Origin: Fusobacterium sp. JB019
Lineage (GTDB): Bacteria > Fusobacteriota > Fusobacteriia > Fusobacteriales > Fusobacteriaceae
Direction of reading: 5' to 3'
DNA length: 64,000 nucleotides
NCBI GenBank assembly: GCA_030673965.1
Contig: JAUTCN010000002.1
Coordinates: forward strand, 434,001-498,000
The translations under genes and the position numbers were made by a program. The notes under the pieces are model-generated. The model did not search any database and was not told the origin of the DNA. It saw only the letters and a list, made by a program, of their open reading frames with translations. Shown one piece after another: positions 1 through 17,256 of this stretch; the first letter of the stretch is position 1; each line of letters begins with the position of its first letter.

Positions 1-2703
1 TTTGATTAGTCTCAAAGTATCTGAATTACCACTTGTCTCATCTACTATAAAATCTGAGTTGAAATTATTAATAATTATTTCTACAACTTTATCACTAAAA
101 TTTTCAGGTATATAAAATAATCCATGTAATATAATTTCATTAAAAATATTATAATTTTTTCCTAAATATTCTTGATAATATTCAAAAAAATATTTAGGTG
201 AACTCTTAATTAGTGAAATATTAGCTTTTTTTATAATTTCAACACAAATACGATTAATATTTTTTCTATTATGTCTATTCCTCCATTCAAAAAAAGCATT
301 TTCTTTTGGAATATATTTCACTAATTTTTCTAGTACAAACTTTCCATCTTTTATCTCTATATTCTCTAGAGAATCTAAACATTTATCTTCATACCTATAT
401 TCACTTCCTAAATTAACTTTACAATTCATCCAATATGATAATATTTTTATTGCCCTTTCTTCTTTTTTAAAAAATAAGCCTTTATCTATATAGACTATTT
501 TTAAAAAATCAGAATCATACTCATAAAATTTTTCTCTTAATTCAAACATTTTATCAGTATCTTCAGATGGATAAGGAGATAAACATCTATAAAATTCCTT
601 GCTGTCCTCTTTATTTTCAAATGCATGCTTAGAAATAAAATCAATATACTCTTCATCGTAATCTCTAGAAATACTATAAAGTAATTTAAACACTGTCTCT
701 TTTTTAGAACTATCTCCAATCCATTTATCTAAAATTTTATTTTTTATTAAAACATTTATATATTTTTTATTTCCAGAAATAACATCTTTTAATATATAGT
801 TTTCTATACTTTTATTTTCACAATTTTCTAAAATATATTTTTCTATAATGTAATTTGGATTTTTAATCTGATTTAAAAGTTCATAAAATAAAAATTTAAT
901 ATAAAATCTAATGCTTTCAGATTCAAGCATCTTTTTTCCTATCTCTAAAAATTCTCTTTGATTATCTTCCAAAATATTTTGTAAAAGCATTTGCATTTGA
1001 TATCGCCTATTTGGTGTTTGTCTAGTTTTGCCTCCTATAATATTTTCAATATCTATTCCATTATCATAATCATCTAGCATATTTTTATAAATAAAATAAT
1101 CTAAAATTGATTGATGGACAAAAGAAATTTTATCATTTTTACTTACAACTAACATCCCATTTGAAACCAAAAGGTTTAAAACACTTTGGTTTGTATCCAA
1201 CCTTCTCTTAGAAATTTCTGAATATCCTTTTTCATCAAATTTTTCTGATATTTTTTTTATTTCTCCTCTTATTAATTCTTCTCCTATTTGACAAGAAGAA
1301 CCTTTTTTTATAATTTCTTCAAACCATCCATACATTAATTTACTAGTAGTTGAATAATCAGTATTTTCTTTTTTTAGATCAAATTGTTGCCATATGTACA
1401 AATTACTAGGTATACTTAATACTTTTTTTGTTTTCAATGATAATTTATTATAGCTACTCGTTCCCATAATATTTTTCAAAATTTCTTCTTTCAGTTCTTT
1501 TATTTCAATTTTTTTCCAACAATTATCATTTAAGTTAAAAAGCTTGTTTATTCCAGTATCTTTTTCTAAATCATAAGTTCTACATACAAAAATTAATATT
1601 ATTTTATGTTCTCTTTTTTTATTTATATTATTTAATTCTATAATAAATTCTTTACAAACTCTTAAAGACTCACTTGAATTAGCTTTCGTCCATCTAAAAG
1701 CATCTAATTGATCTAATATTACAATTCCTTTTTTGTCTTTCATTATTTTATCAGCACAATAAGATATTGGCCCTTCCAGTGATAACTCCTCTCCCCAATA
1801 AAATATATTTTTTTTAGGTATATATTTATCTAATTTTATTGCGACATAAGGTATCTCCTTTTTCTCACAATAATCTATTATTTCATAAGTACATCCACTT
1901 TTCCCAAACCCAGCTCTACCATGAATTATTATTGAGTTTTCTTTTTCTATCTCTTCTATACATTTTTGTGTTTCTTCTCTCTTAATAAAACCATCCTTCA
2001 AACAAGTAAAATCACTTATATATTCCTCATTAAGTCTTTCAAATCTTTCAATTATTTTTTTGTTTTCTTTATTTTCTGAAAATTTAAATACATTCAAATT
2101 ATTTTTTATTAAGATACTATTTATATCATTTAAATTATAAACTTTAAACTGATTAAAACCTTTAATTACTTCATAAATAACACCAACTAAAAATATTTTT
2201 TCGTATTTTTTTAAAAATAATCCACTTCCAGATAGTCCCGAACAATTATCAATAATAGACTTTTCTATAGATTCTATATTTGTTGTTGGTTCTAATCTAT
2301 TATCATCACCGTAATTACAATTTATTTTAATTGCTTGACCTCCTAAACTTTTAGGATAGCCCTTAAAAAATACTTTTTCTTCTGTTTGTGTTATTTCTAA
2401 ATATTCAAAAATTGGAATCTCCTGATTTTCAATTTCCAAAAATATAATAACTAAATCCAATTCAGCATCATCTTTATCATATATTACTTGGCTAGGATTT
2501 ATTTTTATTCCTAATGGTTTTATTATAATTTCATTAAATATTTCTTCATATTTATCACCTAGTAACACATGTTTAGCAGTCAATATAAAATATTTTCTCT
2601 CTTCTGAGTTATAACAAATAACTCCACTACCTTCTCTTTTTTTATCTACTTCTAATTTAACTACTACTTTATCTAAATCATTTAATTGTAATTGTGTATG
2701 CAT
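1..2703 (-). CDS. Trypsin-like protease fused to STAND/NACHT-type NTPase (3' end beyond window)
   Basis: The minus strand is open for 901 codons from ATG at 2703 to the window edge, so the C-terminus is missing. Residues 1-200 look like a trypsin-fold peptidase: His45 in TAKHV, Asp83 in ELDLVII and Ser158 in SGLSGSG form a plausible catalytic triad. A P-loop follows (GRAGFGKS, residues 262-269), then a Walker B strand (GIVILDQLD, Asp331) and a VCRTYD motif typical of STAND NTPases. The remaining ~450 residues are helical, repeat-like and unassigned; in STAND proteins this part senses the trigger. The start lies 26 nt inside the MBL gene upstream, so the two are translationally coupled. STAND NTPases with N-terminal protease effectors are known in antiphage AVAST systems. 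A defence role is inference from architecture and neighbours. Confidence 0.8.
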   Translation of the reverse strand, partial: MHTQLQLNDLDKVVVKLEVDKKREGSGVICYNSEERKYFILTAKHVLLGDKYEEIFNEIIIKPLGIKINPSQVIYDKDDAELDLVIIFLEIENQEIPIFEYLEITQTEEKVFFKGYPKSLGGQAIKINCNYGDDNRLEPTTNIESIEKSIIDNCSGLSGSGLFLKKYEKIFLVGVIYEVIKGFNQFKVYNLNDINSILIKNNLNVFKFSENKENKKIIERFERLNEEYISDFTCLKDGFIKREETQKCIEEIEKENSIIIHGRAGFGKSGCTYEIIDYCEKKEIPYVAIKLDKYIPKKNIFYWGEELSLEGPISYCADKIMKDKKGIVILDQLDAFRWTKANSSESLRVCKEFIIELNNINKKREHKIILIFVCRTYDLEKDTGINKLFNLNDNCWKKIEIKELKEEILKNIMGTSSYNKLSLKTKKVLSIPSNLYIWQQFDLKKENTDYSTTSKLMYGWFEEIIKKGSSCQIGEELIRGEIKKISEKFDEKGYSEISKRRLDTNQSVLNLLVSNGMLVVSKNDKISFVHQSILDYFIYKNMLDDYDNGIDIENIIGGKTRQTPNRRYQMQMLLQNILEDNQREFLEIGKKMLESESIRFYIKFLFYELLNQIKNPNYIIEKYILENCENKSIENYILKDVISGNKKYINVLIKNKILDKWIGDSSKKETVFKLLYSISRDYDEEYIDFISKHAFENKEDSKEFYRCLSPYPSEDTDKMFELREKFYEYDSDFLKIVYIDKGLFFKKEERAIKILSYWMNCKVNLGSEYRYEDKCLDSLENIEIKDGKFVLEKLVKYIPKENAFFEWRNRHNRKNINRICVEIIKKANISLIKSSPKYFFEYYQEYLGKNYNIFNEIILHGLFYIPENFSDKVVEIIINNFNSDFIVDETSGNSDTLRLIK

Positions 2704-3709
2704 GTTCTCCCCCTTCTGGAAAAAGACATTTAAAATTATATTTTTTCTTTTCTTCTTCTGAAAATATCCCCTTTAATACTTCATTATTATAATTAAAAAT
2801 AAAACTTATCGTTTTTTCTATATTCCTTTCCTTATTTAATAATATTCTTGATAAAGCCATTTTTGTTGGGTTATTATTATGATCTCCATTTGTAGAAATA
2901 ATAAAACTATAGCACTCTATAATTTCTAATAATTCTTTACTTAAATTATTTTCACTTCCATGGTGAGGAAGTTTAAAATAATCTAACTTTAATTTATTAT
3001 CTTTAGAATATCCCAAATCTTTTAAAGAACTATACATAATTTTTGCAGAAGCATCTCCTGAAAATAAAAAATTCCTATTATTAATTGAAATAATGAAAGC
3101 TAAACTTGATAAATTTTCGATAGTTAAATTTTCTTTAAAAGTTTCATTATATAATTCTTCAATATCACAAGAATAATCATTATTTTTTGAAGCTATTTTT
3201 TTAGAAACCTCTTCTTCTTTTTTCATTCCTAATAAAAAATTTTTAAGAATTTCCCTATTTGGAGAAAGTATTAAGAAAGATATGTTATTTCTCTCTATAT
3301 TTTTTTTATTAAAAAAATATAATTTATCATTAAATTTATCATTTTTAATTAAGTAATCTTTTAATTTAAGTCCTTGTGAAAAACTTATCTTTTCACTAAA
3401 ATCTAGAAAAGTATCATTGGTATAACAATTAAACCAAACCTCTTTTACTATTTTATCAAATTTTTCATTATCATTTTCTATAAAATTTAATAATCCCCCT
3501 ATATGATCTTGATCCACATGAGTAATAATGAAAATATCTATCTCCCCATTATTATCACTAATTTTTTTTATTTCAGGCTTAACTCCTCTTATATATGTCC
3601 CTTTAAAACCTGAATCTATAAAAATATTAGTAATTTTATCATCTTCTATTACCTTCAATAAAAATGCATCACCATAATTAACTTGTAAAGCTTTAATAAT
3701 TATTTCCGT
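2678..3709 (-). CDS. MBL-fold hydrolase, partner of the trypsin-STAND gene
   Basis: This is a metallo-beta-lactamase-fold protein with the metal-binding signature THVDQDH, a later SGDAS (bridging Asp) and a LPHHGS motif, as in the ComEC-like/RNase Z-like hydrolase group. The first conventional-type start in frame is TTG at 3658. The reading frame continues 17 codons upstream through the residues IIIKALQVNYGDAFLL, which match the usual first beta-strand of the family. It then reaches ACG at 3709-3707, placed 7 nt after a GGGGG ribosome site; an in-frame TAA lies seven codons before that ACG. The coordinates given assume this non-standard start. The 3' end overlaps the STAND gene by 26 nt. No signal peptide is seen. 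Substrate unknown; the pairing resembles AVAST-type loci that carry an MBL gene beside a STAND NTPase. Confidence 0.75.
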   Translation of the reverse strand, partial: TEIIIKALQVNYGDAFLLKVIEDDKITNIFIDSGFKGTYIRGVKPEIKKISDNNGEIDIFIITHVDQDHIGGLLNFIENDNEKFDKIVKEVWFNCYTNDTFLDFSEKISFSQGLKLKDYLIKNDKFNDKLYFFNKKNIERNNISFLILSPNREILKNFLLGMKKEEEVSKKIASKNNDYSCDIEELYNETFKENLTIENLSSLAFIISINNRNFLFSGDASAKIMYSSLKDLGYSKDNKLKLDYFKLPHHGSENNLSKELLEIIECYSFIISTNGDHNNNPTKMALSRILLNKERNIEKTISFIFNYNNEVLKGIFSEEEKKKYNFKCLFPEGGEHAYTITIK

Positions 3710-3868: not shown

Positions 3869-6211
3869 TTATTTTAAATATTTTCCTATTATTGACTCTT
3901 CACAACATTCTATTTTTTCTAAAGTTCCGTTAGCAATTAATTTCCCTCCATCAGCAGAACTCCCTGGACCTAATTCAATTATATTGTCAGATAGTTTTAT
4001 GAGTTCTATATCATGAGTTGCTATAACTATAGTATCCCCTGTTTTTTTTAATTTTAAAAATAACTTATACAATTTTTCAATATCATATAAATGTAAACCA
4101 CTACTAGGTTCATCCAACATATAAATCACTTTATCTTTTCTTAATTTGCCTAATTCTGATACCAGTTTTATTCTTTGAGATTCTCCACCTGACAAAGAAT
4201 TCGAAGGTTGACCTAATTTTATGTAACCCATCCCTAAATCATCCATCATTTTCAAAACTTCATAAATTTTTTTATTTGATTTAAAAAAATTTATACCTTC
4301 TTTTATTGTCATATCTAAAATTTCTGCTATATCTTTATTTTTAAATTTAATAGATAATGCTTCCTTATTGAACCTTTTTCCTTTACAAACTTCACATTTT
4401 TCATAAATATCTTCCATAAAATCTAAACTATACTTTATAACTCCATTTCCTTTACAAAACTCACATCTTCCTCCCTCAATGTTAAAACTAAAAAAACTAT
4501 TTTTATATTTCTTTCCATTTTTATCTTCACATTTTGAAAATAATTTTCTTATTTCGTCATAAATATTTAAATAAGTGGAAACTATTGACCTTGAATTTCT
4601 ACTTATAGGAGTTTGTTCAACTTTTACAACTTTATAATTTATAAAATCCTTATCTTTAAGTTCATATTTTCTTTTTTTTAATGCCCCTTCTAATAATTCT
4701 AAAAGTGTACTTTTACCGCTTCCTGAAACTCCTACAAGAGCATTTATTTGATTATCTTTTAAAAAAAGTGTCATATCTTTTATATTATTTCCCTTTAAAT
4801 TTTTAAAAATAATTTTTTGATAAGCACTCTTAGTTTTATCTTTTATTTTTAAAGAAATACCATTTCTATAATTAAATGTAGCAGATTTTTCTATATTTTT
4901 AAATTTATTTAATGGACCATTATACAAAACTTCGCCTCCGTAAATTCCAGCTTTTGGACCAATATCTATAATATAATCTGCTTTATTTATAAAATAATTA
5001 TTGTGTTCCACTATAATTATAGTATTATTATTTTCTTTAATTTTCAATATATTTTTAATAACTAAATCTATATCTTTAGGATGAAGTCCTGAAGAAGGTT
5101 CATCAAAAATAAATAACATGTTTGAAACAGAATCATTTATAGCGCTTGCTAATCTTATCCTTTGATATTCACCTCCAGATAAACTTATTGTACGTCTATT
5201 TATTGAAATATATTCTAAATTACATTTAATAATATTTTTAATTTTTATTAACATAATATTAATTATTTCTTTTACTAAAATATTTTCTTTTTTTACTTTA
5301 TTTAACCAAATTTTTAATTCTTTAAAAGTTAAATTTTCAACTTCTGAATAATTCAATTCACATATTCTATCCTCAAGATTTTCTTTTCTTATTCCAGACC
5401 CATTACATTCTTTACAATTTTTTTCCAAAAAATATTCTTTATTTATTCCCTCTTTTATTTGTGAAGCGCTATGTTTTTCTTTGTATTTCAACAATTCTTC
5501 TAACACCCCTAAAAAAGTTACTTTTCTTTTTTTTATTTTTCCTTTTGAGCTTCTAAATTTCAATTCTATTCTATCTTTTATTTTTCCTTTCATCAAAAAA
5601 TTATACTCTTTTTCTGAAAAATCTTTAATTTTCTTGCCTATATTTAAATAACCCATCTCACAGATTTTAATTAAGGTTTGATCAAATAAATCTTTTTCCT
5701 TTTTACGCTTCCAGAATAAAACAGCTCCCTCATCTATACTTTTTTCAAAATCAATAATTTTAGTTAAATCAATATCATATATTATTCCTAATCCATTACA
5801 TTCTTTACATGCTCCATAAGGTGTATTTGGTGAAAACTGTGAAGATAAAACATCTTTTCCTTTTGATTTTAAGATAATTACAAAAATTTGCCTTAACATT
5901 TCTGAAATTTTAGTTAAAGTTCCAACCGTAGATCTAACATTATTATTTACCTTAATCTGTTTCATTGATACTGATGGTAAAATTTTATCACAATGAAAAT
6001 CATTAAAATAATTTATTTTCTGACCTAATGAAGATAATTCTGGAAACATTAAATCTAAATATGTATTTCGACTTAAAGCATAAATCGAGTCAAATACTAA
6101 AGAGCTTTTTCCGCTTCCTGAAACTCCTGTTATAACTGTAATTTTATTTTCTGGAAAAGTTATATCTATATTTTTTAAATTATTTATATTTAAGCCATAA
6201 TAATTTATCAT
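3869..6211 (-). CDS. UvrA-like ABC ATPase, probable self-immunity protein of the RiPP cluster
   Basis: A 780-aa tandem ABC protein of the UvrA family. The first half has Walker A GVSGSGKSS (about residue 29), CxxC zinc-finger pairs (CKECNGLG, CKECNGSG), signature LSGGEYQRI and Walker B FIFDEPSSG. The second half has GVSGSGKSTL, CEFCKGNG/CEVCKGKR, LSGGESQRI and YMLDEPSSG. Housekeeping UvrA is about 940 aa; the shortfall falls between the first P-loop and first signature, consistent with loss of the UvrB-binding region. Such UvrA2/DrrC-type paralogues confer resistance to DNA-binding drugs in some antibiotic clusters. The gene begins 20 nt after the second MccB-like gene and is last of the four-gene operon. 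An immunity role, and hence a DNA-targeting product, is inference from context. Confidence 0.82.
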   Translation of the reverse strand: MINYYGLNINNLKNIDITFPENKITVITGVSGSGKSSLVFDSIYALSRNTYLDLMFPELSSLGQKINYFNDFHCDKILPSVSMKQIKVNNNVRSTVGTLTKISEMLRQIFVIILKSKGKDVLSSQFSPNTPYGACKECNGLGIIYDIDLTKIIDFEKSIDEGAVLFWKRKKEKDLFDQTLIKICEMGYLNIGKKIKDFSEKEYNFLMKGKIKDRIELKFRSSKGKIKKRKVTFLGVLEELLKYKEKHSASQIKEGINKEYFLEKNCKECNGSGIRKENLEDRICELNYSEVENLTFKELKIWLNKVKKENILVKEIINIMLIKIKNIIKCNLEYISINRRTISLSGGEYQRIRLASAINDSVSNMLFIFDEPSSGLHPKDIDLVIKNILKIKENNNTIIIVEHNNYFINKADYIIDIGPKAGIYGGEVLYNGPLNKFKNIEKSATFNYRNGISLKIKDKTKSAYQKIIFKNLKGNNIKDMTLFLKDNQINALVGVSGSGKSTLLELLEGALKKRKYELKDKDFINYKVVKVEQTPISRNSRSIVSTYLNIYDEIRKLFSKCEDKNGKKYKNSFFSFNIEGGRCEFCKGNGVIKYSLDFMEDIYEKCEVCKGKRFNKEALSIKFKNKDIAEILDMTIKEGINFFKSNKKIYEVLKMMDDLGMGYIKLGQPSNSLSGGESQRIKLVSELGKLRKDKVIYMLDEPSSGLHLYDIEKLYKLFLKLKKTGDTIVIATHDIELIKLSDNIIELGPGSSADGGKLIANGTLEKIECCEESIIGKYLK

Positions 6212-6231: not shown

Positions 6232-7326
6232 TTACTTATTTTTTTTATATTTTCCTTTTTTTCCACACCATTCACAATTATCTAGTTTTTTATACTCTTT
6301 ATATTTAACATCCATATCATAGATATTAAACTCTCCTCTTCTATTTATATTTGTAGGAGTTATTGTTTTAGTTAAAACTTTAATCGCTTCTAAGGAAGAA
6401 AAACTCGATGAAATAGAGCACATTGGCCCTAAACTCCCAATTTTTCTACCAGCAATAGCTAATTTTTTCATATTTGCAATATCTAAATCATTTTGTTCTT
6501 TGAGTTGTTTCTCAAAACATTTAACACAGGCGGTTTTATAAGGAATTATTGTTTGCCCTATTAACGAAACATGTAAATTATATCCACCAGCTATTATATG
6601 AGGTATATTTTTTTTCATGCAATATTCTCCTATCCAAATAGCAGTTTGATCTACCGTTGGTTTATCTGCACAATCAATAATCAAATCTAATTTTTCTCCA
6701 TCAAAAAAATTTAAAGTTTCTTCACATAACATTTTTTTGACTATTGAAATATTAGCTTTTTCATTAATGTCTAATAATCTTTTTTTCAAAACCTCTACTT
6801 TAAATTTTCCAATATCTTCTTCTATATATCCCCATTGTCTATGTAAATTTGAAATTTCAATTTTATCATTGTCCATTAAAATTAAATTCTCTACTCCTGA
6901 TTGAATCAAATTTGCTGCAATCCAACTTCCCACTGCTCCTATCCCTATTACTAGTACTTTAGATTTTTTTATATTGTTCCAAGCCATTTGAACTTTCTCT
7001 TCACTAGAAAAATAATCTTCTAACATTGAAAAAACTCTAGAATAAATTTCTCTATCTTTAGTTTTTTTTATCTCTAAATCATCAACTATTATACTATTAG
7101 TTTTTAAAAATTTTAAAAATTTTAAAAACTTTTTTTTAGTATAATTATTCATTTTATATTTATCTGCTATTTCATCAACTGTACTTTCTCCATCTAATGA
7201 ACAAATTAGTTTAGAAACTTTTTCATCTATTTTTACAATTAAACTTTTCCTAATATTACCTTTAAAAAATTCAATTTGACCTTCATTTACTACAACTCCT
7301 ACAGAACTTCTAATTCTAGGCTTCAT
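6232..7326 (-). CDS. MccB-like E1 adenylating enzyme with N-terminal RRE domain
   Basis: A 364-aa ThiF/E1-superfamily protein matching MccB in layout. Residues 1-85 form a PqqD-like RiPP recognition element (LDGESTVDEIADKY). The E1 core follows with the nucleotide-binding loop GIGAVG (128-133), DND at 152-154, NLHRQ with the Arg finger R163, and Asp221 for Mg. Two CxxC pairs (C267/C270 and C351/C354) should bind structural zinc. All E1 catalytic residues appear present, so ATP-dependent adenylation of a peptide carboxylate is expected; MccB uses this to build the P-N bond of microcin C and PaaA acts in pantocin synthesis. The start overlaps the upstream E1 gene by 11 nt (ATGAAGCCTAG). It is the more canonical of the two E1 copies. 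Confidence 0.85.
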   Translation of the reverse strand: MKPRIRSSVGVVVNEGQIEFFKGNIRKSLIVKIDEKVSKLICSLDGESTVDEIADKYKMNNYTKKKFLKFLKFLKTNSIIVDDLEIKKTKDREIYSRVFSMLEDYFSSEEKVQMAWNNIKKSKVLVIGIGAVGSWIAANLIQSGVENLILMDNDKIEISNLHRQWGYIEEDIGKFKVEVLKKRLLDINEKANISIVKKMLCEETLNFFDGEKLDLIIDCADKPTVDQTAIWIGEYCMKKNIPHIIAGGYNLHVSLIGQTIIPYKTACVKCFEKQLKEQNDLDIANMKKLAIAGRKIGSLGPMCSISSSFSSLEAIKVLTKTITPTNINRRGEFNIYDMDVKYKEYKKLDNCEWCGKKGKYKKNK

Positions 7327-8407
7327 CTAATATTCCTCCACACACTAAACATTTTGGATCTTTTTTCACATCTAAATACTTTATTTTGTAAGTATCTATA
7401 TCCATTTCTCCTCTTGTTAAATAATTATTTTTTTCTACCTTAACCCCACAAATAAATTTTATAATTTGAACTGCTGCATAACTTGATGAAAATAAACTTT
7501 GGGAAGCAAAACCACCATATTTGATAAACTCATTTCTAATTTTTTTTTGTTCAGGTTTCCAATCTTTAAGTGCTTTTTCAAAATAATTCATATAACAACT
7601 AACACAAGGAGTTTTCCCAGGAATTATTAATTCTCCTGTACTCATATTATGTATGTTAAATCCACCTGCTATATAATGGGGCTTTCTTAACTCTACACAT
7701 TTTTTTGATATTTTTAACGATGTATATCCAATATATGGCTCATCTGCTGTATTAATCACAAAAGTAGAAGATTTTATTAATTCATCAATATTTTTATTTG
7801 GTATTAATTTTTCAAATAAAATTTTTACTTTTGCTTTTGAGTTAATCTTTTGTATTTCTTCTTTTAAAGCCTGAACTTTACTTTTTCCAACATGACTTTT
7901 TCTGTAATACATATGTCTGCATTTATCTGATTCTTTAACTTTTTTAAAATCTAAAATAATAAAATTTTCTACTCCTGCCATAGCTAACAATAATGCTATA
8001 TCTCCCCCCATTGCACCTACACCAAAAATAACTATTTTAGAATCCTCTATTTTTTTTTGATTATTTATTCCTGCGCACTCTCCTATATTAAATTCACTTA
8101 AATAGTTAATTTGTCTTTCATATCTTTTATCAACAATAATATTATGCTTTTTTTCAACCACTACATTAATTGAAACTAAAAATTTCATAATTTTATTAAC
8201 TGTTTCAACACTTATTTCAGAATTATTTTCTTGATTATAAACTTCAGCTATTTCCTTACTATCTTTTTCTCCATCAATTAGTTTAATTAAATTTATAGTT
8301 TTTTCATTTACTTTGTATTCCATTAATCTTCTCGTATTAATAAAATAAAAAAGTAAGATATTATCTTGTATTGTATAAATATCTATACTATCTTTGATTT
8401 TAAACAT
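7316..8407 (-). CDS. Divergent MccB-like E1 protein with N-terminal RRE domain
   Basis: A 363-aa paralogue of the next gene: RRE-like residues 1-85 (IDGEKDSKEIAEVY), E1 core with GVGAMG (129-134), Asp222, and CxxC pairs C268/C271 and C353/C356. The active-site loop is altered. The second Asp of the DxD motif is Lys (DFK, 153-155), and the usual N-x-x-R-Q is D-K-C-R-H (161-165), keeping only the Arg. This suggests weak, altered or lost adenylation. By analogy with heterodimeric E1s in which one half is inactive, it may pair with the canonical copy; that is inference. It starts 65 nt after the precursor gene, behind a perfect hairpin, with ribosome site GGAG. Confidence 0.82.
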   Translation of the reverse strand: MFKIKDSIDIYTIQDNILLFYFINTRRLMEYKVNEKTINLIKLIDGEKDSKEIAEVYNQENNSEISVETVNKIMKFLVSINVVVEKKHNIIVDKRYERQINYLSEFNIGECAGINNQKKIEDSKIVIFGVGAMGGDIALLLAMAGVENFIILDFKKVKESDKCRHMYYRKSHVGKSKVQALKEEIQKINSKAKVKILFEKLIPNKNIDELIKSSTFVINTADEPYIGYTSLKISKKCVELRKPHYIAGGFNIHNMSTGELIIPGKTPCVSCYMNYFEKALKDWKPEQKKIRNEFIKYGGFASQSLFSSSYAAVQIIKFICGVKVEKNNYLTRGEMDIDTYKIKYLDVKKDPKCLVCGGILDEA

Positions 8408-8432: not shown

Positions 8433-8461
8433 GAGAAGCTTTATTAATTATAAAGCTTCTC
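8433..8461 (-). promoter_or_regulatory. Perfect 11-bp hairpin between precursor and E1 genes
   Basis: GAGAAGCTTTA and TAAAGCTTCTC flank a 7-nt loop exactly between the precursor stop and the first E1 start. No long U-run follows, so it is more likely a leaky attenuator or an mRNA-stabilising stem than a full terminator. Such an element would allow more precursor than enzyme to be made, a common arrangement in RiPP operons. Confidence 0.7.
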
Positions 8462-8472
8462 TTAATAAATTT

Positions 8473-8667
8473 TTAATATTGAATTACTCCAGCGTTAATT
8501 TCTAAAAATTCTCCCCATTGTTCTTCAGAAATATCTATGTTATTTCTTGTACAAACTCTAGTACAACAAGCTGAACGTCCTTCATTAGAACAACCCGCAC
8601 TATACGCTCCCATAACATGTTCTTCTTCAACAACTTCAAATTCAAAATCATCAATCTTAAAATTCAT
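8473..8667 (-). CDS. Putative Cys-rich RiPP precursor peptide
   Basis: A 64-aa peptide with ribosome site GGAGG 7 nt before ATG. Residues 1-19 are acidic and hydrophobic (IDDFEFEVVEEE), a plausible leader. The middle carries four cysteines (C26, C34, C35, C39) among Ser, Thr, Gly and Arg residues (CSNEGRSACCTRVCTRNN). The C-terminal tail (44-64) is acidic and ends in Tyr. It is first in an operon with two RRE-E1 enzymes and a UvrA-like protein, which is why it is called a precursor; no close family was recognised. Unlike the microcin C7 precursor it does not end in Asn, so an MccB-style C-terminal nucleotide conjugate would require trimming at N42/N43. A small metal-binding protein is the alternative. 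Confidence 0.68.
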   Translation of the reverse strand: MNFKIDDFEFEVVEEEHVMGAYSAGCSNEGRSACCTRVCTRNNIDISEEQWGEFLEINAGVIQY

Positions 8668-8973: not shown

Positions 8974-11760
8974 ATGAGCATAGAAAGTGAAGCTACTTTA
9001 GAAAATAAACTAATAGAGCAGTTATCTAATAATGGCTATAGTAAAGTCACTATTACTAATGAATTTGATCTTCATGAAAACTTTAAAAAACAATTAGAAA
9101 AATATAATGAAATTTTCCTTACAGATAGAGAATTTGATAAAGTCTTAATTCACCTTCAAGGAGATAGTATCTTTGAAAAAGCTAAAAAATTAAGAAGACC
9201 TTTTCCTCTTCAAAGAGATGATGGAGATATGTCATATATTGAATTTTTTAATCAGGAAGATTTTTCTAAAAATATCTTCCAAGTGACAAATCAAGTTACT
9301 ATGGAAGGAACATATAAAAATAGATATGATGTTACTATCCTTATAAATGGAATTCCCATGGTTCAAATTGAACTAAAAAAGAGAGGTATTGAATTAAAGC
9401 AAGCTTTCAACCAAATAAATAGGTACCAAGATCATTCTTATAAAGGCCTTTTTAATTACATTCAAATATTTGTAATTAGTAATGGAGTCAATACTAAATA
9501 TTATTCAAATAATAAAGATCAATCCTTTAAACAAACTTTTTATTGGACTGATGAAAATAATAAAAAAATAAGTAACTTAAAAGATTTTACAAATATATTT
9601 TTAGATAAAGAGCATTTAAATATAATGATATCTAAATATATTGTATTACATGAAACTTGTAAAATTCTTATGGTCCTTAGGCCTTATCAATATTATGCAG
9701 TGGAAAGAATATTAGATACTGTTCATAATTCTCCTAATAGCAACGGATATATTTGGCACACTACTGGAAGTGGTAAAACTCTTACTTCTTTTAAAGCTAG
9801 TCAAATATTAATAACTAAAGAAGAAATAGATAAGGTTATATTTGTCGTTGATAGAAAAGATTTAGATAACCAAACAATGGAAGAATTTAATAGCTTTTCA
9901 AAAGGAAGTATCGATGGAACAGACAGTACTAAATCTCTAGTTTCTCAACTTACAGATAACACTACTCCTTTGGTTATAACTACTATACAAAAGCTTAATA
10001 ATGCTATTAGCAAACATCATTTAGAAACTAAAATGAAAAGTGTTAAAGATAAGAGATTAATTTTCATATTTGATGAATGCCATAGAAGTCAATTTGGAGA
10101 TACTCATAAAAAAATAAATAATTTTTTCACATCAAAACAATTCTTTGGTTTTACTGGAACACCTATATTTGCTGTAAATGCAATTCATCATAAAACTACA
10201 GCAGATCTATTTGAAAAACCCTTACATAAATATACTATTAAAGATGCTATTGCTGATGATAATGTCCTTGGTTTTTCTGTAGAGTATTATAATACTTTTA
10301 AAAGTAAAAAATTACAAGATGAAAATGGAGATGATCGTTATTTAGATGATATTAAAGTAGAAGGCATTAATACTAAAGAAGTTTTTGAAGCTCAAGAAAG
10401 GCTTGAAAATATAGTCGATTTCATAATTTCTAATCATTGTAGGAAGACAAGGGACAAGGAATTTAATAGTATTTTTGCTGTAAATTCCATTGAAACACTT
10501 TTAAAATATTATGATATATTTAAGTCTAAAGATCATGATTTAAATATAGCTACTATATTCACCTATGCAGATAATGAAGATAATAAAAATGCAAATGGTA
10601 TAGCAGAAGAAAAAACAAATAAACATACTAGAGAACGTTTAGATGAAATAGTAAATGACTATAATAAAACATTTGGAACTAATCATAATCTAAATAAAGA
10701 TAATGGTTTTAATGCTTATTTTGTAGATCTTTCTAAAAAAGTTAAAGAGAAAAAAATAGATATCCTTCTAGTTGTAAATATGTTTTTAACTGGATTTGAT
10801 AGTCCACGTTCAAATACTCTATATGTTGATAAAAATTTAAAATATCATAACTTAATTCAAGCTTTTTCAAGAACAAATAGATTACTTAACGAAACAAAAA
10901 GTTATGGAAATATAGTTTGTTTTAGAAATTTAAAGAAAAATACAGATGAAGCAATAGAGCTGTATTCTAATCTTGATGCAAAAGAAACTGTCTTAATGAA
11001 AGACTACAGAGAGTATGTTAAAGATTTCAATAAGTATGTAGATGATTTAATAACTCTTGCTCCTGATGTTAATGATATAAACGATTTAAATTCTGAAGAT
11101 GATAAATATAGATTTATTGAAATATATAGAAATCTTTTAAGAGTTTTAAATAAACTTACTACTTTTAGTAAATTTTCATATGATGATCTTAATATGACTG
11201 AACAAACATTCAATGACTATAAAAGTAAATATCTTGATCTTCATTATGAAGTAAATAAACAAAAAGAAAAAGTTAGTATCTTAAATGATATCGATTTTGA
11301 AATTGAATTAACAAGAAAAGATTATGTTAATGTTTCATATATAATTTCACTTATTAAAAATTTAAATTCTGAAGATGAAGGATTCTTAAAAGATAAAGAA
11401 TTTATTCTTAAAACTATTGAAAGCAATCCTGAATTAAGAAGTAAAAAAGAATTAATAGAACAATTCATTGAAGAAAATAGAGTAAATATAGTTGCAGGTA
11501 ATAAATTTGACATAGAAGAAAAATTAAAATTATTTTTACAAAAAGAAAAAGAAAGACAAATTTCAGAGTTTATAGCTTTAGAAAATTTAAGAGAAGAATC
11601 AGCAAAGAAAATTATATCTGATTATGAATTTAGTAGTAAATTCAATGTTGGTGAAATAAAAAAATCTTTCCTTGGAAAGGTTGGATTAAAAGAAAAAAGA
11701 GAAAAAATAAATAACGTTAAACATAAAATAGAAGAAATAATGAATACATTCAATTGGTAA
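8974..11760 (+). CDS. hsdR: Type I restriction enzyme, R subunit (HsdR)
   Basis: The 928-aa motor and nuclease subunit of a type I restriction-modification complex, which translocates DNA and cleaves far from the recognition site. The N-terminal nuclease core shows the PD-(D/E)XK end VQIELKKRG and the QxxxY-like FNQINRYQ. SF2 helicase motifs follow: HTTGSGKT (motif I), IFDECHRSQFG (motif II), GFTGTPIF (motif III) and LTGFDSPRSN (motif V region). The C-terminal ~250 residues are helical and charged, as expected for the domain contacting the methylase. Ribosome site GGGAG precedes ATG. hsdM follows after 14 nt. Length is somewhat below the ~1000-aa average but every core motif is present. Confidence 0.95.
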   Translation: MSIESEATLENKLIEQLSNNGYSKVTITNEFDLHENFKKQLEKYNEIFLTDREFDKVLIHLQGDSIFEKAKKLRRPFPLQRDDGDMSYIEFFNQEDFSKNIFQVTNQVTMEGTYKNRYDVTILINGIPMVQIELKKRGIELKQAFNQINRYQDHSYKGLFNYIQIFVISNGVNTKYYSNNKDQSFKQTFYWTDENNKKISNLKDFTNIFLDKEHLNIMISKYIVLHETCKILMVLRPYQYYAVERILDTVHNSPNSNGYIWHTTGSGKTLTSFKASQILITKEEIDKVIFVVDRKDLDNQTMEEFNSFSKGSIDGTDSTKSLVSQLTDNTTPLVITTIQKLNNAISKHHLETKMKSVKDKRLIFIFDECHRSQFGDTHKKINNFFTSKQFFGFTGTPIFAVNAIHHKTTADLFEKPLHKYTIKDAIADDNVLGFSVEYYNTFKSKKLQDENGDDRYLDDIKVEGINTKEVFEAQERLENIVDFIISNHCRKTRDKEFNSIFAVNSIETLLKYYDIFKSKDHDLNIATIFTYADNEDNKNANGIAEEKTNKHTRERLDEIVNDYNKTFGTNHNLNKDNGFNAYFVDLSKKVKEKKIDILLVVNMFLTGFDSPRSNTLYVDKNLKYHNLIQAFSRTNRLLNETKSYGNIVCFRNLKKNTDEAIELYSNLDAKETVLMKDYREYVKDFNKYVDDLITLAPDVNDINDLNSEDDKYRFIEIYRNLLRVLNKLTTFSKFSYDDLNMTEQTFNDYKSKYLDLHYEVNKQKEKVSILNDIDFEIELTRKDYVNVSYIISLIKNLNSEDEGFLKDKEFILKTIESNPELRSKKELIEQFIEENRVNIVAGNKFDIEEKLKLFLQKEKERQISEFIALENLREESAKKIISDYEFSSKFNVGEIKKSFLGKVGLKEKREKINNVKHKIEEIMNTFNW

Positions 11761-11774
11761 AAGGAGAATATTAA

Positions 11775-13316
11775 ATGTCGGAACATAAACAAGAACTGGA
11801 AAAAAAGCTATGGGCAATAGCTAATGAATTAAGAGGAAGTATGGGGGCAGATGAATTTAGAGACTATATTCTAGGTTTAATCTTTTATAAATTCCTTAGT
11901 GAAAAAATAGAAAAAGCTGCTGCTGAAGAATTAAAAGATGAAAATTTAACATTTTTAGAAGCAGTTAGCGATGAAGAAACAAAAAAAGAATTATCAGAAC
12001 TTGTTATAGATGAACTAGGTTATTTCATAGAACCAAAATATTTATTCCATAATCTAGCATCAAGAGCTAGACAAAAAGAATTTATAATAGAAGATCTTGG
12101 TAAAGGACTAAAATATATTGAAGAATCTGCTCTTGGGCATGAAAGTGAAGAAGATTTTACTGGTCTATTTGTAGATATTGACTTAAATTCTCCTAGATTA
12201 GGAAAAAATTCTGATGAAAAAAATAAATTAATATCAGAAGTTATAAAACATTTAGCTGATATCAACTTTATGTATGAAGATACTGAAATAGATGTACTTG
12301 GAGATGCTTATGAATATTTAATCGGAGAATTTGCAAGTGGTGCTGGTAAGAAAGCTGGAGAGTTCTATACTCCTCAACAAGTATCTAAGATTCTTGCTAA
12401 ATTAGTTACAGTAAATAAAAATAAAATAAAAAGTGCTTATGATCCTACTTGTGGTTCTGGTTCTCTATTACTTAGAATTTCTAAAGAAGCAGAAGTAGCT
12501 GATTTTTACGGACAAGAAAAAAACAATACAACTTATAACCTCGCTAGAATGAATATGATATTACATAATGTTAATTTTAATAATTTTAATATTATGCAAG
12601 GAGATACCTTAGAAGATCCTCAACATTTAAATAAAAGATTTGAAGCAGTTGTGGCTAATCCACCTTTTTCTGCTAAATGGAGTGCAAATCAAACTTTCTT
12701 ATCTGATGAAAGATTTGCTGACTATGGAAAATTAGCACCTAAAACAAAGGCTGATTTTGCTTTTGTTCAACATATGCTTTACCAATTAGATGACAATGGT
12801 ACTATGGCAACTGTACTTCCTCATGGAGTTCTTTTTAGAGGGGCAGCTGAAGGAGTTATTAGAAAATATTTAATTAAAGATAAAAATTATTTAGATGCTG
12901 TTATAGGATTACCTGCTAATATATTTTATGGAACATCTATCCCTACATGTATATTAGTATTAAAAAAGCAAAGAACAAATCCAGATGACATCTTATTTAT
13001 AGATGCTAGCAATCTTTTTGAAAAACAAAAAAATCAAAATATTTTAAAAGACGAGCATGTAAATAAAATAATAGAAACTTACAAAAATAGAGAAGACATG
13101 GATAAATTTTCTCATAAGGCTACAATGAAAGAAATAATAGAAAATGATTATAACTTAAATATCCCTAGATATGTGGATACTTTTGAAGAAGAAGAACCTA
13201 TTGATTTAGATATGGTTGTAAATGAAATCTTAAAAATAGATGAAGATATGAAAGAAATAGATGCAGAAATAAAAAAATATTGTGATGAGCTTAAAATAAA
13301 AGCTCCATTAGTGTAG
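11775..13316 (+). CDS. hsdM: Type I DNA methyltransferase, M subunit (HsdM)
   Basis: A 513-aa N6-adenine methyltransferase subunit. The N-terminal helical HsdM_N region (RGSMGADEFRDYILGLIFYKFLS) is followed by the SAM-binding motif YDPTCGSGSLLLRIS and the catalytic NPPF in VVANPPFSAKW. Ribosome site AAGGAG sits 8 nt before ATG. The stop abuts hsdS. With HsdS it methylates the host sites and with HsdR restricts unmodified DNA. No truncation seen. Confidence 0.96.
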   Translation: MSEHKQELEKKLWAIANELRGSMGADEFRDYILGLIFYKFLSEKIEKAAAEELKDENLTFLEAVSDEETKKELSELVIDELGYFIEPKYLFHNLASRARQKEFIIEDLGKGLKYIEESALGHESEEDFTGLFVDIDLNSPRLGKNSDEKNKLISEVIKHLADINFMYEDTEIDVLGDAYEYLIGEFASGAGKKAGEFYTPQQVSKILAKLVTVNKNKIKSAYDPTCGSGSLLLRISKEAEVADFYGQEKNNTTYNLARMNMILHNVNFNNFNIMQGDTLEDPQHLNKRFEAVVANPPFSAKWSANQTFLSDERFADYGKLAPKTKADFAFVQHMLYQLDDNGTMATVLPHGVLFRGAAEGVIRKYLIKDKNYLDAVIGLPANIFYGTSIPTCILVLKKQRTNPDDILFIDASNLFEKQKNQNILKDEHVNKIIETYKNREDMDKFSHKATMKEIIENDYNLNIPRYVDTFEEEEPIDLDMVVNEILKIDEDMKEIDAEIKKYCDELKIKAPLV

Positions 13317-13325
13317 GTGGTAGTT

Positions 13326-14540
13326 ATGGAAAAAAGACTAGTACCTAAGTTAAGGTTTCCTGAATTTAAAGATAATTGGGAAGAAAAAAGATTAAGAGAA
13401 ATATCTACAAATGTAAGTTATGGAATGAACTCCGCTTCAACCACTTTTGATGGAACTAATAAATATATTCGAATTACTGATATCAATGAACAAAATAATT
13501 TATTTACTCCTAATCCTTTAACATCTCCAGTAGAAATTGTTGATTCTAAATTCAAATTAAAAGAAAATGATCTCCTTTTTGCTAGAACTGGAGCAAGTAC
13601 AGGAAAAAGTTATCTCTATAAAAAAGATGATGGAAATTTATTCTTTGCTGGATTTTTAATTAAATTTTCAATTCTAAGTACATATAATTCTAAATTTATT
13701 TTCTATAACACATTAAGAAGTTCTTATAAAAAATGGGTTAAAATTATGTCTACTCGTTCTGGACAACCTGGAATAAATGCTGAAGAATATAAAACTTTAA
13801 AAGTTTATATTCCCAATATAAAAGAACAAAAAAAAATTGCTGATTTTTTATCTGCAGTTGATTCTAAAATTGAAAAATTAGAAAGAAAAAAAGAACTTTT
13901 AGAAGATTATAAAAAGGGAATGATGCAAAAGATTTTCAGCCAAGAAATTAGGTTTAAAGATAATTCTGGAAATGATTATCCTGAGTGGGAAGAAAAAAAG
14001 TTAGGTGAAATTTTAAGATTAAATTTAAGACCTGTTCCAAAACCTTTAACTCCTTATGGAGCTTTAGGAATTAGAAGTCACGCTAAAGGAACAATGCATA
14101 AAAAAATTGAAAATCCAAATGAGATTTCTATGGATACTCTATATAAAGTAAAAGAAAATGATTTTATTGTTAGTATTACTTTTGCTTGGGAACATGCTGT
14201 TGCTATTTGTAAAAAAGAAGATAATGGAAGACTTGTTTCTCATAGATTTCCAACATATACTGCTAACTTTAATCTAAATATTAACTATTTTAAACATTAT
14301 ATAAAAAGAAAGCAATTTAAGTTTTCCTTATCTATGATTTCTCCCGGTGGAGCTGGAAGGAATAGAGTTATGAGTAAAAAAGATTTTTCTAATATAAAAT
14401 GTATGCTCCCTTCTCTACTGGAACAAGAAAAAATTGCTGAATTTTTATCTGCAATTGATTCCAAAATTAAAAAATTAGAAACTTTAATTGAAAATAATAA
14501 AAAATTTAAAAAAGGATTATTACAACAAATATTTATATAA
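13326..14540 (+). CDS. hsdS: Type I restriction specificity subunit (HsdS)
   Basis: This protein has two target-recognition domains, each followed by a conserved helical spacer: EQKKIADFLSAVDSKIEKLE around residue 170 and EQEKIAEFLSAIDSKIKKLE near the C-terminus. The repeats start from LVPKLRFPEF and NDYPEWEEKKLGEIL. It sets the bipartite DNA sequence recognised by the complex. A GTG directly after the hsdM stop is in frame, but ATG at 13,326 lies a proper distance after AGGTGG and is preferred. The two half-domains differ, so an asymmetric target is expected; the actual sequence cannot be read from the protein. Confidence 0.93.
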   Translation: MEKRLVPKLRFPEFKDNWEEKRLREISTNVSYGMNSASTTFDGTNKYIRITDINEQNNLFTPNPLTSPVEIVDSKFKLKENDLLFARTGASTGKSYLYKKDDGNLFFAGFLIKFSILSTYNSKFIFYNTLRSSYKKWVKIMSTRSGQPGINAEEYKTLKVYIPNIKEQKKIADFLSAVDSKIEKLERKKELLEDYKKGMMQKIFSQEIRFKDNSGNDYPEWEEKKLGEILRLNLRPVPKPLTPYGALGIRSHAKGTMHKKIENPNEISMDTLYKVKENDFIVSITFAWEHAVAICKKEDNGRLVSHRFPTYTANFNLNINYFKHYIKRKQFKFSLSMISPGGAGRNRVMSKKDFSNIKCMLPSLLEQEKIAEFLSAIDSKIKKLETLIENNKKFKKGLLQQIFI

Positions 14541-14552
14541 AAGGAGAGTTTT

Positions 14553-16214
14553 ATGAAAAAAGATATTTTAGAAGAATTAACTATATTTCTTGAAGTTTAC
14601 AAATGTATTGATTTAGAAAATCAAGATAAATTTTTAATTTTTGAAAAATTAAAGAAAAAATTAAAAGAATCTAATCCTGAAATTTCAGATATTTTAGAAA
14701 TAAAAAATGAAGATGAAATTAGATTAAAATTAATGGGACTTATTTTATCTAGAGTATTACCATTTTTTAAAAACGAAAAAAACTTATTAGATGAAGAAAC
14801 TATAAATGATTTAATTATTCTCTCAAAAAATAGGAATGCTGAAAAAAATTTTTATGACAAATTGAATAAAATTTATGAGCACTTAAGCTTCGAAAAAAAA
14901 AGAAGAAATTTAAATTATCATATCTCGAAACAAGTTAATTATTCTGAGATTAATTATTCTGTTAGTTATTTAATTCAAGAATTTTCTAGTGGTAGGATGA
15001 AAATGCCTAAATATCAAAGAGATTATGTATGGACAATTGACCAAGCAAGTGAACTCATTTTATCATTATTACGAGGAATTCCCATTCCTAAACTTTATGG
15101 GTATAACGACTATGATGAAACCTTAAATAAAAATATAAAATTAATAATTGATGGTCAACAAAGAATAACTAGTATTTTAATGTGGTTTTATGGTATCTTT
15201 CCAAAATTTAAAATAAGAACTATTAATTATAGTGAATATATGAGTGAAATTGTTAAGCTATGTAATTATTATTATTATCCCGATTCTTATAGACAAGAAG
15301 CAAATAGAAAGCAAAGTGAAGAAGAACGTTTAGATATGTTAGAGCAAATTGAAAATGCAAAACAAACTTTAGAATCTAAATATAAATTAAATCTAAATGC
15401 TAGTTTTTTAGCTAATATAGCTGGTGAAAATAGTGAATTTGAAAAAACTGATATTAGTTATCGGAGTTCTAAATCAATTTTAACTCCTAAAGAAAAACAA
15501 GATCTTCTAGATAAAGAACTTGGTTTTGTTATTGTTAAAGGTGAAAAAACCAGTGAAACCGTTGATATATTCAGGTTATATAATAGTGCTGGTACTCAAT
15601 TATCAGAACAAGAAATTAGAAATGGAATTTATTATAGAAATGAATTATACAAATTAATCAATCAATTCAACGAAGAAACTGGAAGGCAACCAAAAACTAA
15701 CAAAATTATTCATAAAAATTGGAATAATATAAAACCAAGAGATACTTATAAAAATGATGTAAAACAATTATTTCATATGCTTGCCTGTGTTCATGATTTG
15801 AAAAAATATAACACATCCGATTTTGAAAATTTACTTAATTCAAATAAAAATATTGATATTTTAACTGAAAAAAGAGAAGAATTAATTAATAATTATTCAG
15901 CAGTTATTTCTAATGAAAATAAAAATTCTTTAAAATTACGTTCCGAATTTGAAACAATTACTAATTTCTTTGAATTAAAATTTAATAATAAAAATATTCC
16001 AAAAAATATTAAAGCTTATACTGCTTTATTTATAATACTAAAGAAACTTGAACTTTTAAATAAAGATCTTGATTATAAAAAAATCACTATTCCTTGTGAA
16101 ATTATTTGTTGTAAAAACGAAAATTCTAAAAAAAGCTATATTTCTTTCGAATATTTAAGAAAAATCTATAAAATTTTAAAATTAAAAGGAGTTTTAAATG
16201 AATTTAAAAAATAA
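14553..16214 (+). CDS. DUF262 (GmrS/ParB-like) domain protein of a three-gene module
   Basis: A 553-aa protein. Residues 1-125 are a helical N-terminal extension. Residues 135-210 carry the DUF262 core: KYQRDYVW (153-160), RGIPIPKLY and LIIDGQQRITSIL (near 197-209). Further on are FRLYNSAGTQLSEQEIRNG and helical C-terminal sequence. DUF262 has a ParB/sulfiredoxin-like nucleotide-binding fold and forms the GmrS half of the type IV GmrSD enzyme, where its partner GmrD carries an HNH (DUF1524) nuclease. No DUF1524 domain is seen here; an HNH protein is instead encoded two genes on. It starts 12 nt after hsdS and overlaps the ATPase gene by 17 nt. A role in restriction is inference from family and context. 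Confidence 0.83.
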   Translation: MKKDILEELTIFLEVYKCIDLENQDKFLIFEKLKKKLKESNPEISDILEIKNEDEIRLKLMGLILSRVLPFFKNEKNLLDEETINDLIILSKNRNAEKNFYDKLNKIYEHLSFEKKRRNLNYHISKQVNYSEINYSVSYLIQEFSSGRMKMPKYQRDYVWTIDQASELILSLLRGIPIPKLYGYNDYDETLNKNIKLIIDGQQRITSILMWFYGIFPKFKIRTINYSEYMSEIVKLCNYYYYPDSYRQEANRKQSEEERLDMLEQIENAKQTLESKYKLNLNASFLANIAGENSEFEKTDISYRSSKSILTPKEKQDLLDKELGFVIVKGEKTSETVDIFRLYNSAGTQLSEQEIRNGIYYRNELYKLINQFNEETGRQPKTNKIIHKNWNNIKPRDTYKNDVKQLFHMLACVHDLKKYNTSDFENLLNSNKNIDILTEKREELINNYSAVISNENKNSLKLRSEFETITNFFELKFNNKNIPKNIKAYTALFIILKKLELLNKDLDYKKITIPCEIICCKNENSKKSYISFEYLRKIYKILKLKGVLNEFKK

Positions 16215-17256
16215 TGACTTGATAGAAGAAATTAAAAATATTGATAAAAATAATAATATAAAAGGAGCTGTATTAGTTGGTAAAAATAATTCTGGAAAAA
16301 CTTACAAATTAAATAATCTTTTTTTAGAATTATATAAAAATCAGGAAGAAACTTATCTACCATTTGATCTAAAAAAAAATTTAGAGCAAGAATTTAAAAT
16401 AGATAGTGTTATTTATTTTAGCAAAGCCATTATTACAGGCGGAATTAGTTCTAATTCTGGTAAATCTATTTTAGAAAATTTAGACGGCGATTTAGAAATT
16501 AATTTAAAAAATGATACTTTAATTAATACTTCTATTTCTCAAATTTTATTTAGCACTTTAAAATATGATTCAGAATATTATTACAGTAATCTTATAAAAA
16601 AATATTTAAATCTTAATTTAAAATATTCTTCAGAACAAAATGAATTATTAATTACCACCGATGCTGAAGAATCTAATTTAAAAACAGATGAAAACTATTT
16701 TCTTAAATCTAGTGGATATCTTTCTCTTATAAGAATAATTGTTTTAATAGATTTCTTTATGAAAAAAAATTGTGAAACTTTAAAATGGATTTTAATTGAT
16801 GAACCTGATGCTTTTTTAGATTCTGAAAATAGAACTATTTTTTTAAATATTTTACAAGAAATTCTTTCTAATTATAGTTGTCGTGCTAAAATTATTATTT
16901 CATCACATAATTCAGAAACTCTATTCTCTTTACCCAACAATTATTATATTTATCAATTAATTAATAAAAATTATTATAAAAAATATTACTCTCAAGACTT
17001 TTTTAACAAACCTAAATTAGAAGAAATTTTATTTAGTCAAAATAATAATTTGCTCAAACTTAGTTCTAATATGAACACTCTTATTAATTGTTATAAAAAT
17101 TCATTAATAGGAACTAAATATAGAAGATTAACTGATGAAAAAGAACTGATTTTTCTACTTAATATAGAAAAAAATACAAAAGAAACTATTAAAAAACCTT
17201 TAACCATAAAAGAACAAATTATTTTAAATTCTATTCTAGGAGGAAATTATGACTAA
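16198..17256 (+). CDS. PtuA-like ABC/SMC-type ATPase
   Basis: A compact 352-aa ATPase: Walker A GKNNSGKT (28-35), a signature-like KSSGYLSLIRI (about 170-180), Walker B WILIDEPDAF (D201/E202) and switch His237 in ISSHNSET. The middle is short, without a long coiled coil. This is the OLD/AAA_15-like group found as PtuA in Septu and in retron effector pairs. It overlaps both neighbours (17 nt upstream, 8 nt downstream), so all three proteins are probably made in fixed ratio. Pairing with an HNH protein directly downstream is the Septu layout. Confidence 0.83.
   Translation: MNLKNNDLIEEIKNIDKNNNIKGAVLVGKNNSGKTYKLNNLFLELYKNQEETYLPFDLKKNLEQEFKIDSVIYFSKAIITGGISSNSGKSILENLDGDLEINLKNDTLINTSISQILFSTLKYDSEYYYSNLIKKYLNLNLKYSSEQNELLITTDAEESNLKTDENYFLKSSGYLSLIRIIVLIDFFMKKNCETLKWILIDEPDAFLDSENRTIFLNILQEILSNYSCRAKIIISSHNSETLFSLPNNYYIYQLINKNYYKKYYSQDFFNKPKLEEILFSQNNNLLKLSSNMNTLINCYKNSLIGTKYRRLTDEKELIFLLNIEKNTKETIKKPLTIKEQIILNSILGGNYD

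Follow-up and report, generated by a model that had tools for sequence, protein, structure and literature searches.

A conserved pair of ThiF enzymes, one with a changed ATP site, in a probable peptide-modifying gene cassette of Fusobacterium sp. JB019

A 64,000-nucleotide stretch of Fusobacterium sp. JB019 DNA (contig JAUTCN010000002.1; hereafter the window) harbors two neighboring genes for ThiF-type E1 enzymes, only one of which has a canonical ATP site. Why are both copies kept, and what could the altered one contribute? The two ORFs, E1-A (7316-8407, 363 aa) and E1-B (6232-7326, 364 aa), are located on the minus strand and overlap by 11 nt. Both encode a ThiF domain (Pfam E-values of 8.5e-36 and 4.3e-46) preceded by an RRE-like domain, and E. 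coli MccB is the best Protein Data Bank relative of E1-A and likewise of E1-B. The gene order precursor peptide, E1-A, E1-B, and UvrA-like protein is common to five loci from three phyla: the window, Macrococcus equipercicus, plasmids of Moraxella osloensis and Acinetobacter johnsonii, and genome G066, which belongs to a different family of the same order as the window.

ATP sites, phylogeny, and predicted folds of E1-A and E1-B

The first-pass annotation had described E1-B as canonical, and this was confirmed by the residues read: P-loop GIGAVG, D152-N-D154, N160-L-H-R163-Q164, K176, D221, and the zinc cysteines C267/C270/C351/C354. E1-A had been reported to carry DFK and DxxRH at the matching places but to keep the P-loop, Asp222, and the zinc cysteines. 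This reading also proved correct, the corresponding residues being P-loop GVGAMG, D153-F-K155, D161-K-C-R164-H165, K177, D222, and C268/C271/C353/C356. All five E1-A orthologues contain [DS]xxRH. Each of the 44 further ThiF proteins in the collection shows NxxRQ; these are the five E1-B and 39 others, among them MccB of E. coli, an enzyme of the pantocin type from Vibrio, and one of the GRC type. DxxRH occurred in none of these 44 sequences, and within this set it was rejected as an accepted active variant, the outcome that would have spoken against the annotation.

The intact ATP site of ThiF enzymes from RiPP pathways (GxGxxG, DxD, NxxRQ, K, D) was complete in five of five E1-B proteins. In E1-A, Asn and Gln of this site were lost from all five orthologues, the third Asp from four, where it is replaced by Lys, and a P-loop Gly from one, as the last Gly is changed to Thr in Moraxella (GCGAVT). 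The third Asp is kept by Macrococcus E1-A, all E1-B, and all 15 single ThiF enzymes. Nine ATP-contact columns were examined; E1-B retains 9/9 in each orthologue and 6/9 are invariant in E1-A. The description of the E1-A site as degraded therefore holds for Asn, Gln, and usually the third Asp. It does not extend to Arg164, Lys177, and Asp222, which are invariant in five of five orthologues together with D153, the equivalent of MoeB Asp62. Unlike yeast Tcd1, E1-A retains the Arg that binds phosphate (MoeB Arg73). Furthermore, an invariant motif specific for E1-A, DEPYIGxTSxK, surrounds D222 in the pocket, and a GELI motif is also present. Because the four residues are invariant and E1-A possesses a pocket motif of its own, it is a conserved, specialized protein with a changed ATP site and not a decaying copy; probably, it serves as a non-adenylating partner. 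The pocket motif is as conserved as that of E1-B and suggests a function of its own.

A phylogenetic tree was calculated with 15 single ThiF enzymes. E1-A and E1-B each formed one clade, the two clades were mutual sisters, and their split from the single enzymes was supported by 92/82. Since E1-A is one clade, [DS]xxRH represents one evolutionary change retained over long branches rather than five independent changes; the difference in motifs between the two copies is more than chance. Host groupings (Moraxella with Acinetobacter, the window with Macrococcus) were mirrored in both clades, and pairwise distances of E1-A and E1-B correlated with r = 0.77. The stem branch of E1-A (0.82) was longer than that of E1-B (0.48), which, together with the loss of some catalytic residues, would also be expected if E1-A were a redundant, decaying duplicate without any role. 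This reading is highly improbable: the E1-A ORF is intact in five loci from three phyla, the alignment contains 66 invariant columns and a complete zinc site, and E1-A is always accompanied by E1-B. A single ThiF enzyme encoded on a Lactiplantibacillus plasmid (locus L051, 1957-3039) shares the motif GGYxxHxxLIGxTIIP with E1-B and may represent a one-enzyme ancestral state.

Structures were predicted with AF2, plasmid-derived rows being left out. The E1-B model (from seven related sequences, pLDDT 81) showed an MccB-like fold, with TM-scores mostly of 0.71-0.76 to full-length MccB and a Foldseek E-value of 1.3e-20. MccB was also closest to the E1-A model (pLDDT 67), which has the order of elements seen in E1-B. 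Both proteins thus combine an N-terminal RRE-like and a C-terminal ThiF domain, with the RRE part of E1-A modeled at low confidence (pLDDT about 40-70). In profile comparisons, the two N-terminal domains matched each other (E = 6e-13). Weaker matches (E = 3e-5 to 5e-5) were obtained to the corresponding domains of a group of other ThiF enzymes, but none by sequence to the N-terminal domain of MccB itself.

These domains bear on the suggested division of labor between leader binding and adenylation. Leader binding by E1-A alone is not indicated, as an RRE-like domain is found in both proteins and is conserved to a similar degree (35% vs 32% mean identity). E1-A might nevertheless act mainly as a leader-binding docking protein in the style of YcaO pathways, leaving catalysis to E1-B homodimers. 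ThiF domains of YcaO clusters are docking domains only (PMC12150305), and E1-A has kept its RRE-like domain. E1-B could function as a homodimer, since its site is complete and it retains both the position of an Arg finger (R97) and an RRE-like domain. Yet a docking role for E1-A is quite unlikely, because neither a YcaO cyclodehydratase, as used in YcaO/TOMM azole pathways, nor another catalyst was seen in any of the five cassettes, E1-B does not lack an RRE-like domain, and pure docking would not need the strongly conserved pocket motif of E1-A. An asymmetry of the Arg finger was considered as proof of a heterodimer and dropped, as both E1 copies keep the Arg; this finger is inessential in MoeB/ThiF (PMC13139853).

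Precursor peptide, hairpin, and distribution of the cassette

Upstream of the enzymes lies the gene for a precursor peptide of 64 aa (8473-8667, minus strand), equipped with a good ribosome-binding site. The peptide consists of a leader with the motif FEVV, a presumed core YSAGCSNEGRSACCTRVCTR, and a C-terminal part EEQWGEFLEINAGVIQY. A conserved precursor gene precedes the enzymes in all five loci, and its products comprise 62-67 aa and invariably end in Gln-Tyr. Alignment of the five precursors revealed 20 invariant residues including C26, C34, C35, C39, W51, E56, and the C-terminal GVxQY. The invariant elements are the Phe of the FEVV-like leader motif, S-x-x-C-S, R-S-x-C-C-T-R-x-C-T, W, L-E, and G-V-x-Q-Y; accordingly, E56 and the C-terminal Y64 are two invariant candidate carboxylates. 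A degenerate DNA pattern for CCTRxCT was found in two of 98 genomes of the phylum, which are exactly the two holders of the E1 pair. A match of the precursor to a Streptomyces plasmid (E = 1) was rejected as chance, no ThiF gene being adjacent.

The gap between the precursor gene and E1-A contains a predicted RNA hairpin with a 12-bp stem (8433-8461, minus strand; -15.9 kcal/mol, z = -4.2 compared to shuffled sequences). Hairpins of unrelated sequence separate the precursor gene from the next gene in five of five loci, with z-values from -3.4 to -4.8 in four and of -0.8 in Macrococcus; a search of Rfam gave no match. The predicted hairpin is a probable attenuator or processing site providing more precursor than enzyme, and the order precursor, hairpin, enzymes would correspond to the usual layout of RiPP operons with precursor in excess. 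In Macrococcus only, an additional RadC/JAB-like ORF (5112-5588 of that locus) is inserted between precursor and E1-A; it could encode a precursor peptidase.

Across the five loci, the ORFs for E1-A and E1-B overlap by 8-23 nt in four and lie 2 nt apart in one, an arrangement that would suit subunits produced in a 1:1 ratio. E1-A was never found without E1-B in 98 + 108 + 399 genomes and a plasmid search. The suggested pattern of an inactive half supporting an active one is partly supported, in so far as the pair is conserved and co-inherited, combines a canonical with an altered site, and is encoded by abutting or overlapping ORFs. All six genomes of the same genus examined lacked the pair, and its presence is thus patchy. 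Scanning of genome contigs with E1-B identified one locus, that of Macrococcus; the same scan with E1-A alone gave no match, nor did viral contigs scanned with the E1-A, E1-B, and precursor alignments. ThiF proteins of two further genomes (G113 and G292) were rejected as pairs, each being single. The 15-kb contig of the G066 cassette is probably a plasmid, as judged from ParA and replication-type genes.

UvrA-like protein and neighboring defense genes

The last gene of the cassette (3869-6211, minus strand) encodes a UvrA-like protein of 780 aa. It matched UvrA of NCBIfam with an E-value of 1.9e-201, and the main match begins at position 265 of the model. Alignment to the 944-aa UvrA of the same genome revealed a gap at the UvrB-binding region, which is lost from the UvrA-like proteins of all five loci (706-780 aa). 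Protection against a DNA intercalator is known for Ecm16, a UvrA-like protein that likewise has no UvrB-binding domain (PMC10192343). By analogy, the cassette protein is a probable self-immunity factor, and its shortened form suggests that the product is linked to DNA. Identity of the window protein to ordinary UvrA was 39%; among each other, the UvrA-like proteins shared 28-35%, except for those of Moraxella and Acinetobacter with 52%. Apart from this last pair, distances among the UvrA-like proteins are similar to those from ordinary UvrA, which suggests either an old divergence or repeated recruitment of the immunity gene.

Genes for phage defense adjoin four of the five cassettes. To the left of the window cassette (1-3658, minus strand), a gene for an MBL-fold hydrolase (PADLOC LmuA, E = 2e-77; NCBIfam Avs1a, E = 4e-49) precedes a large ORF that matches LmuA weakly and extends past the window edge; apparently, this is an Avs1/Lamassu-like defense system. 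To the right (8974-18028, plus strand), genes resembling type I restriction-modification systems apparently form a defense island adjoining the RiPP cassette. After these genes, ORFs resembling DUF262, ATPase, and HNH proteins were noticed by eye, and a patatin-like phospholipase, possibly an effector, is encoded near the defense genes (18149-19126, plus strand; Pfam E = 1.7e-34). BREX is located beside the Acinetobacter cassette, and an IetA/IetS anti-phage pair (1533-4824) shares the contig with the G066 cassette. The Macrococcus locus contains a P-loop protein (PADLOC candidate PDC-M26A) and a PD-(D/E)XK protein, both McrBC-like by a weak assignment.

These neighbors may reflect mobile islands only. 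An exporter or protease gene was found in none of the five cassettes, and this, together with the defense neighbors, leaves open an intracellular defensive role. A DNA-directed peptide kept in the cell would then serve in phage defense or as a poison for abortive infection, with the UvrA-like protein as antidote. This idea, based on the lack of exporter and protease, an immunity protein of the kind associated with DNA-binding drugs, the mobile location, and defense genes at 4/5 loci, is considered unlikely. The cassette is probably a small mobile gene set of one precursor, two sister E1s, and one immunity protein, devoted to a modified peptide and immunity against it.

Proposed mechanism and comparison with known systems

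We propose that the five loci represent a minimal RiPP cassette whose two enzymes, E1-A and E1-B, are obligate partners in a heterodimer built like the MccB dimer, with a probability of about one half for the proposal as a whole. The leader of the precursor would be bound by the RRE of one subunit and the C-terminal part would enter the active site of the partner. There, E1-B would use ATP to adenylate a carboxylate of the precursor, either that of the invariant C-terminal Tyr or that of Glu56. The adenylate would then be attacked by a side chain from the conserved Ser/Cys/Thr-rich core, leading to ring closure. E1-A would not adenylate but hold the peptide and shape the site of E1-B. Owing to the hairpin, more precursor than enzyme would be made, and the producer would be shielded by the UvrA-like protein, probably at the DNA.

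MccB-type enzymes are dimers with an RRE working in trans (PMC12250964, PMC12150305). In MccB, both monomers clamp the peptide, one with its N-terminal domain and the other with C-terminal residues and its crossover loop (PMC12250964). In models of IndF, the leader rests on the RRE of one subunit and the C-terminus of the peptide enters the site of the other (PMC12150305). A heterodimer with E1-B adenylating and E1-A assisting fits the data because the paralogues are co-made and co-inherited, one site is canonical, and peptides are shared in this way by MccB and IndF.

E1-A may still use ATP, as Arg164, Lys177, Asp222, and Asp153 are kept. The first three correspond to MoeB Arg73, Lys86, and Asp130, positions that do matter: Tcd2 is impaired when any of these equivalents is mutated (PMC13139853), EnfB requires Asp225, and its Arg167 and Lys180 were named essential for ATP binding (PMC12250964). 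The retained Arg, Lys, and Asp make it a serious alternative that both proteins are active, together or as separate homodimers, and act sequentially on different carboxylates of one precursor. They might address Glu56 and the C-terminal Tyr, or E1-B might activate and E1-A catalyze a second, altered ATP-dependent step. Such a scheme, already raised by the annotation, would explain why E1-A keeps both key Asp, most of the P-loop, and an invariant pocket motif, and why the precursor offers two invariant carboxylates; moreover, MccB alone carries out two ATP-dependent steps (PMC12250964). However, Asn and Gln of NxxRQ, universal among the 44 other ThiF proteins, are gone from every E1-A, and the variable third Asp and P-loop Gly indicate an ATP site less constrained than that of E1-B. 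Two reactions are less likely, and the heterodimer with a single adenylating subunit is preferred.

The closest relative of both E1s, MccB of the E. coli microcin C7 system, likewise combines RRE and ThiF domains with zinc cysteines and an upstream precursor gene. It is a single enzyme forming homodimers, in contrast to the two paralogues described here, and its cluster encodes an exporter and a 7-aa precursor ending in Asn; the cassettes lack an exporter, and their precursors of 62-67 aa end in Tyr, the microcin C trait being absent from 5/5. Pantocin A is defined by a Glu-Glu-Asn core, and no conserved EEN was found in the five precursors. Among IndF, EnfB, GrcB, and PaaA, which also carry RRE and ThiF domains and activate a carboxylate of their precursor, the first two target a conserved C-terminus, to which GVxQY may be analogous. 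The clusters of all four encode one ThiF enzyme, and pairing with a divergent second copy or a UvrA-like gene, as in the cassette, is not described in the literature consulted. The UvrA-like protein itself resembles Ecm16/DrrC, which are 700-870 aa long, encoded in biosynthetic clusters, and devoid of the UvrB-binding domain, but are known from actinomycetes, where the pathways lead to DNA-binding drugs; here, the context is a RiPP. In the main texts of the open literature, neither a RiPP pathway with paired ThiF enzymes nor a combination of ThiF with UvrA-like genes was found to be described; on this basis the cassette is provisionally regarded as an undescribed variant of the MccB/PaaA/GrcB/EnfB/IndF kind.

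Ubiquitin-like conjugation (Bil, E1-E2 defense) was rejected, as genes for an E2 and a ubiquitin-like protein were not seen and the RadC/JAB-like ORF is confined to Macrococcus. Pairs of ThiF-type proteins are known from other pathways. Yeast Tcd1-Tcd2, involved in ct6A synthesis, is a heterodimer of two ThiF paralogues with a proposed inactive half, Tcd1, and an active one, Tcd2 (PMC13139853). The similarity lies in the impaired ATP site of one paralogue; Tcd1-Tcd2 differ by their tRNA substrate and lack of an RRE, and Tcd1 has lost the catalytic Arg kept by E1-A and has a Glu in its P-loop. SAE1-SAE2 and NAE1-NAE2 also comprise an inactive and an active adenylation half of common origin, as the sister proteins E1-A and E1-B may do; the eukaryotic pairs act on ubiquitin-like proteins by means of a catalytic Cys domain, and the cassette contains neither such a domain nor a ubiquitin-like protein or E2. 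If E1-A and E1-B form an obligate heterodimer, the cassette would add a family of ThiF RiPPs whose Cys-rich precursor is new and whose immunity gene, of the UvrA type, points to a DNA target by its presence. Leader holding and adenylation, the separate tasks of the two halves of an MccB-type dimer, could then be dissected with natural parts, and bacteria would have a counterpart of the split active/inactive E1s that modifies peptides.
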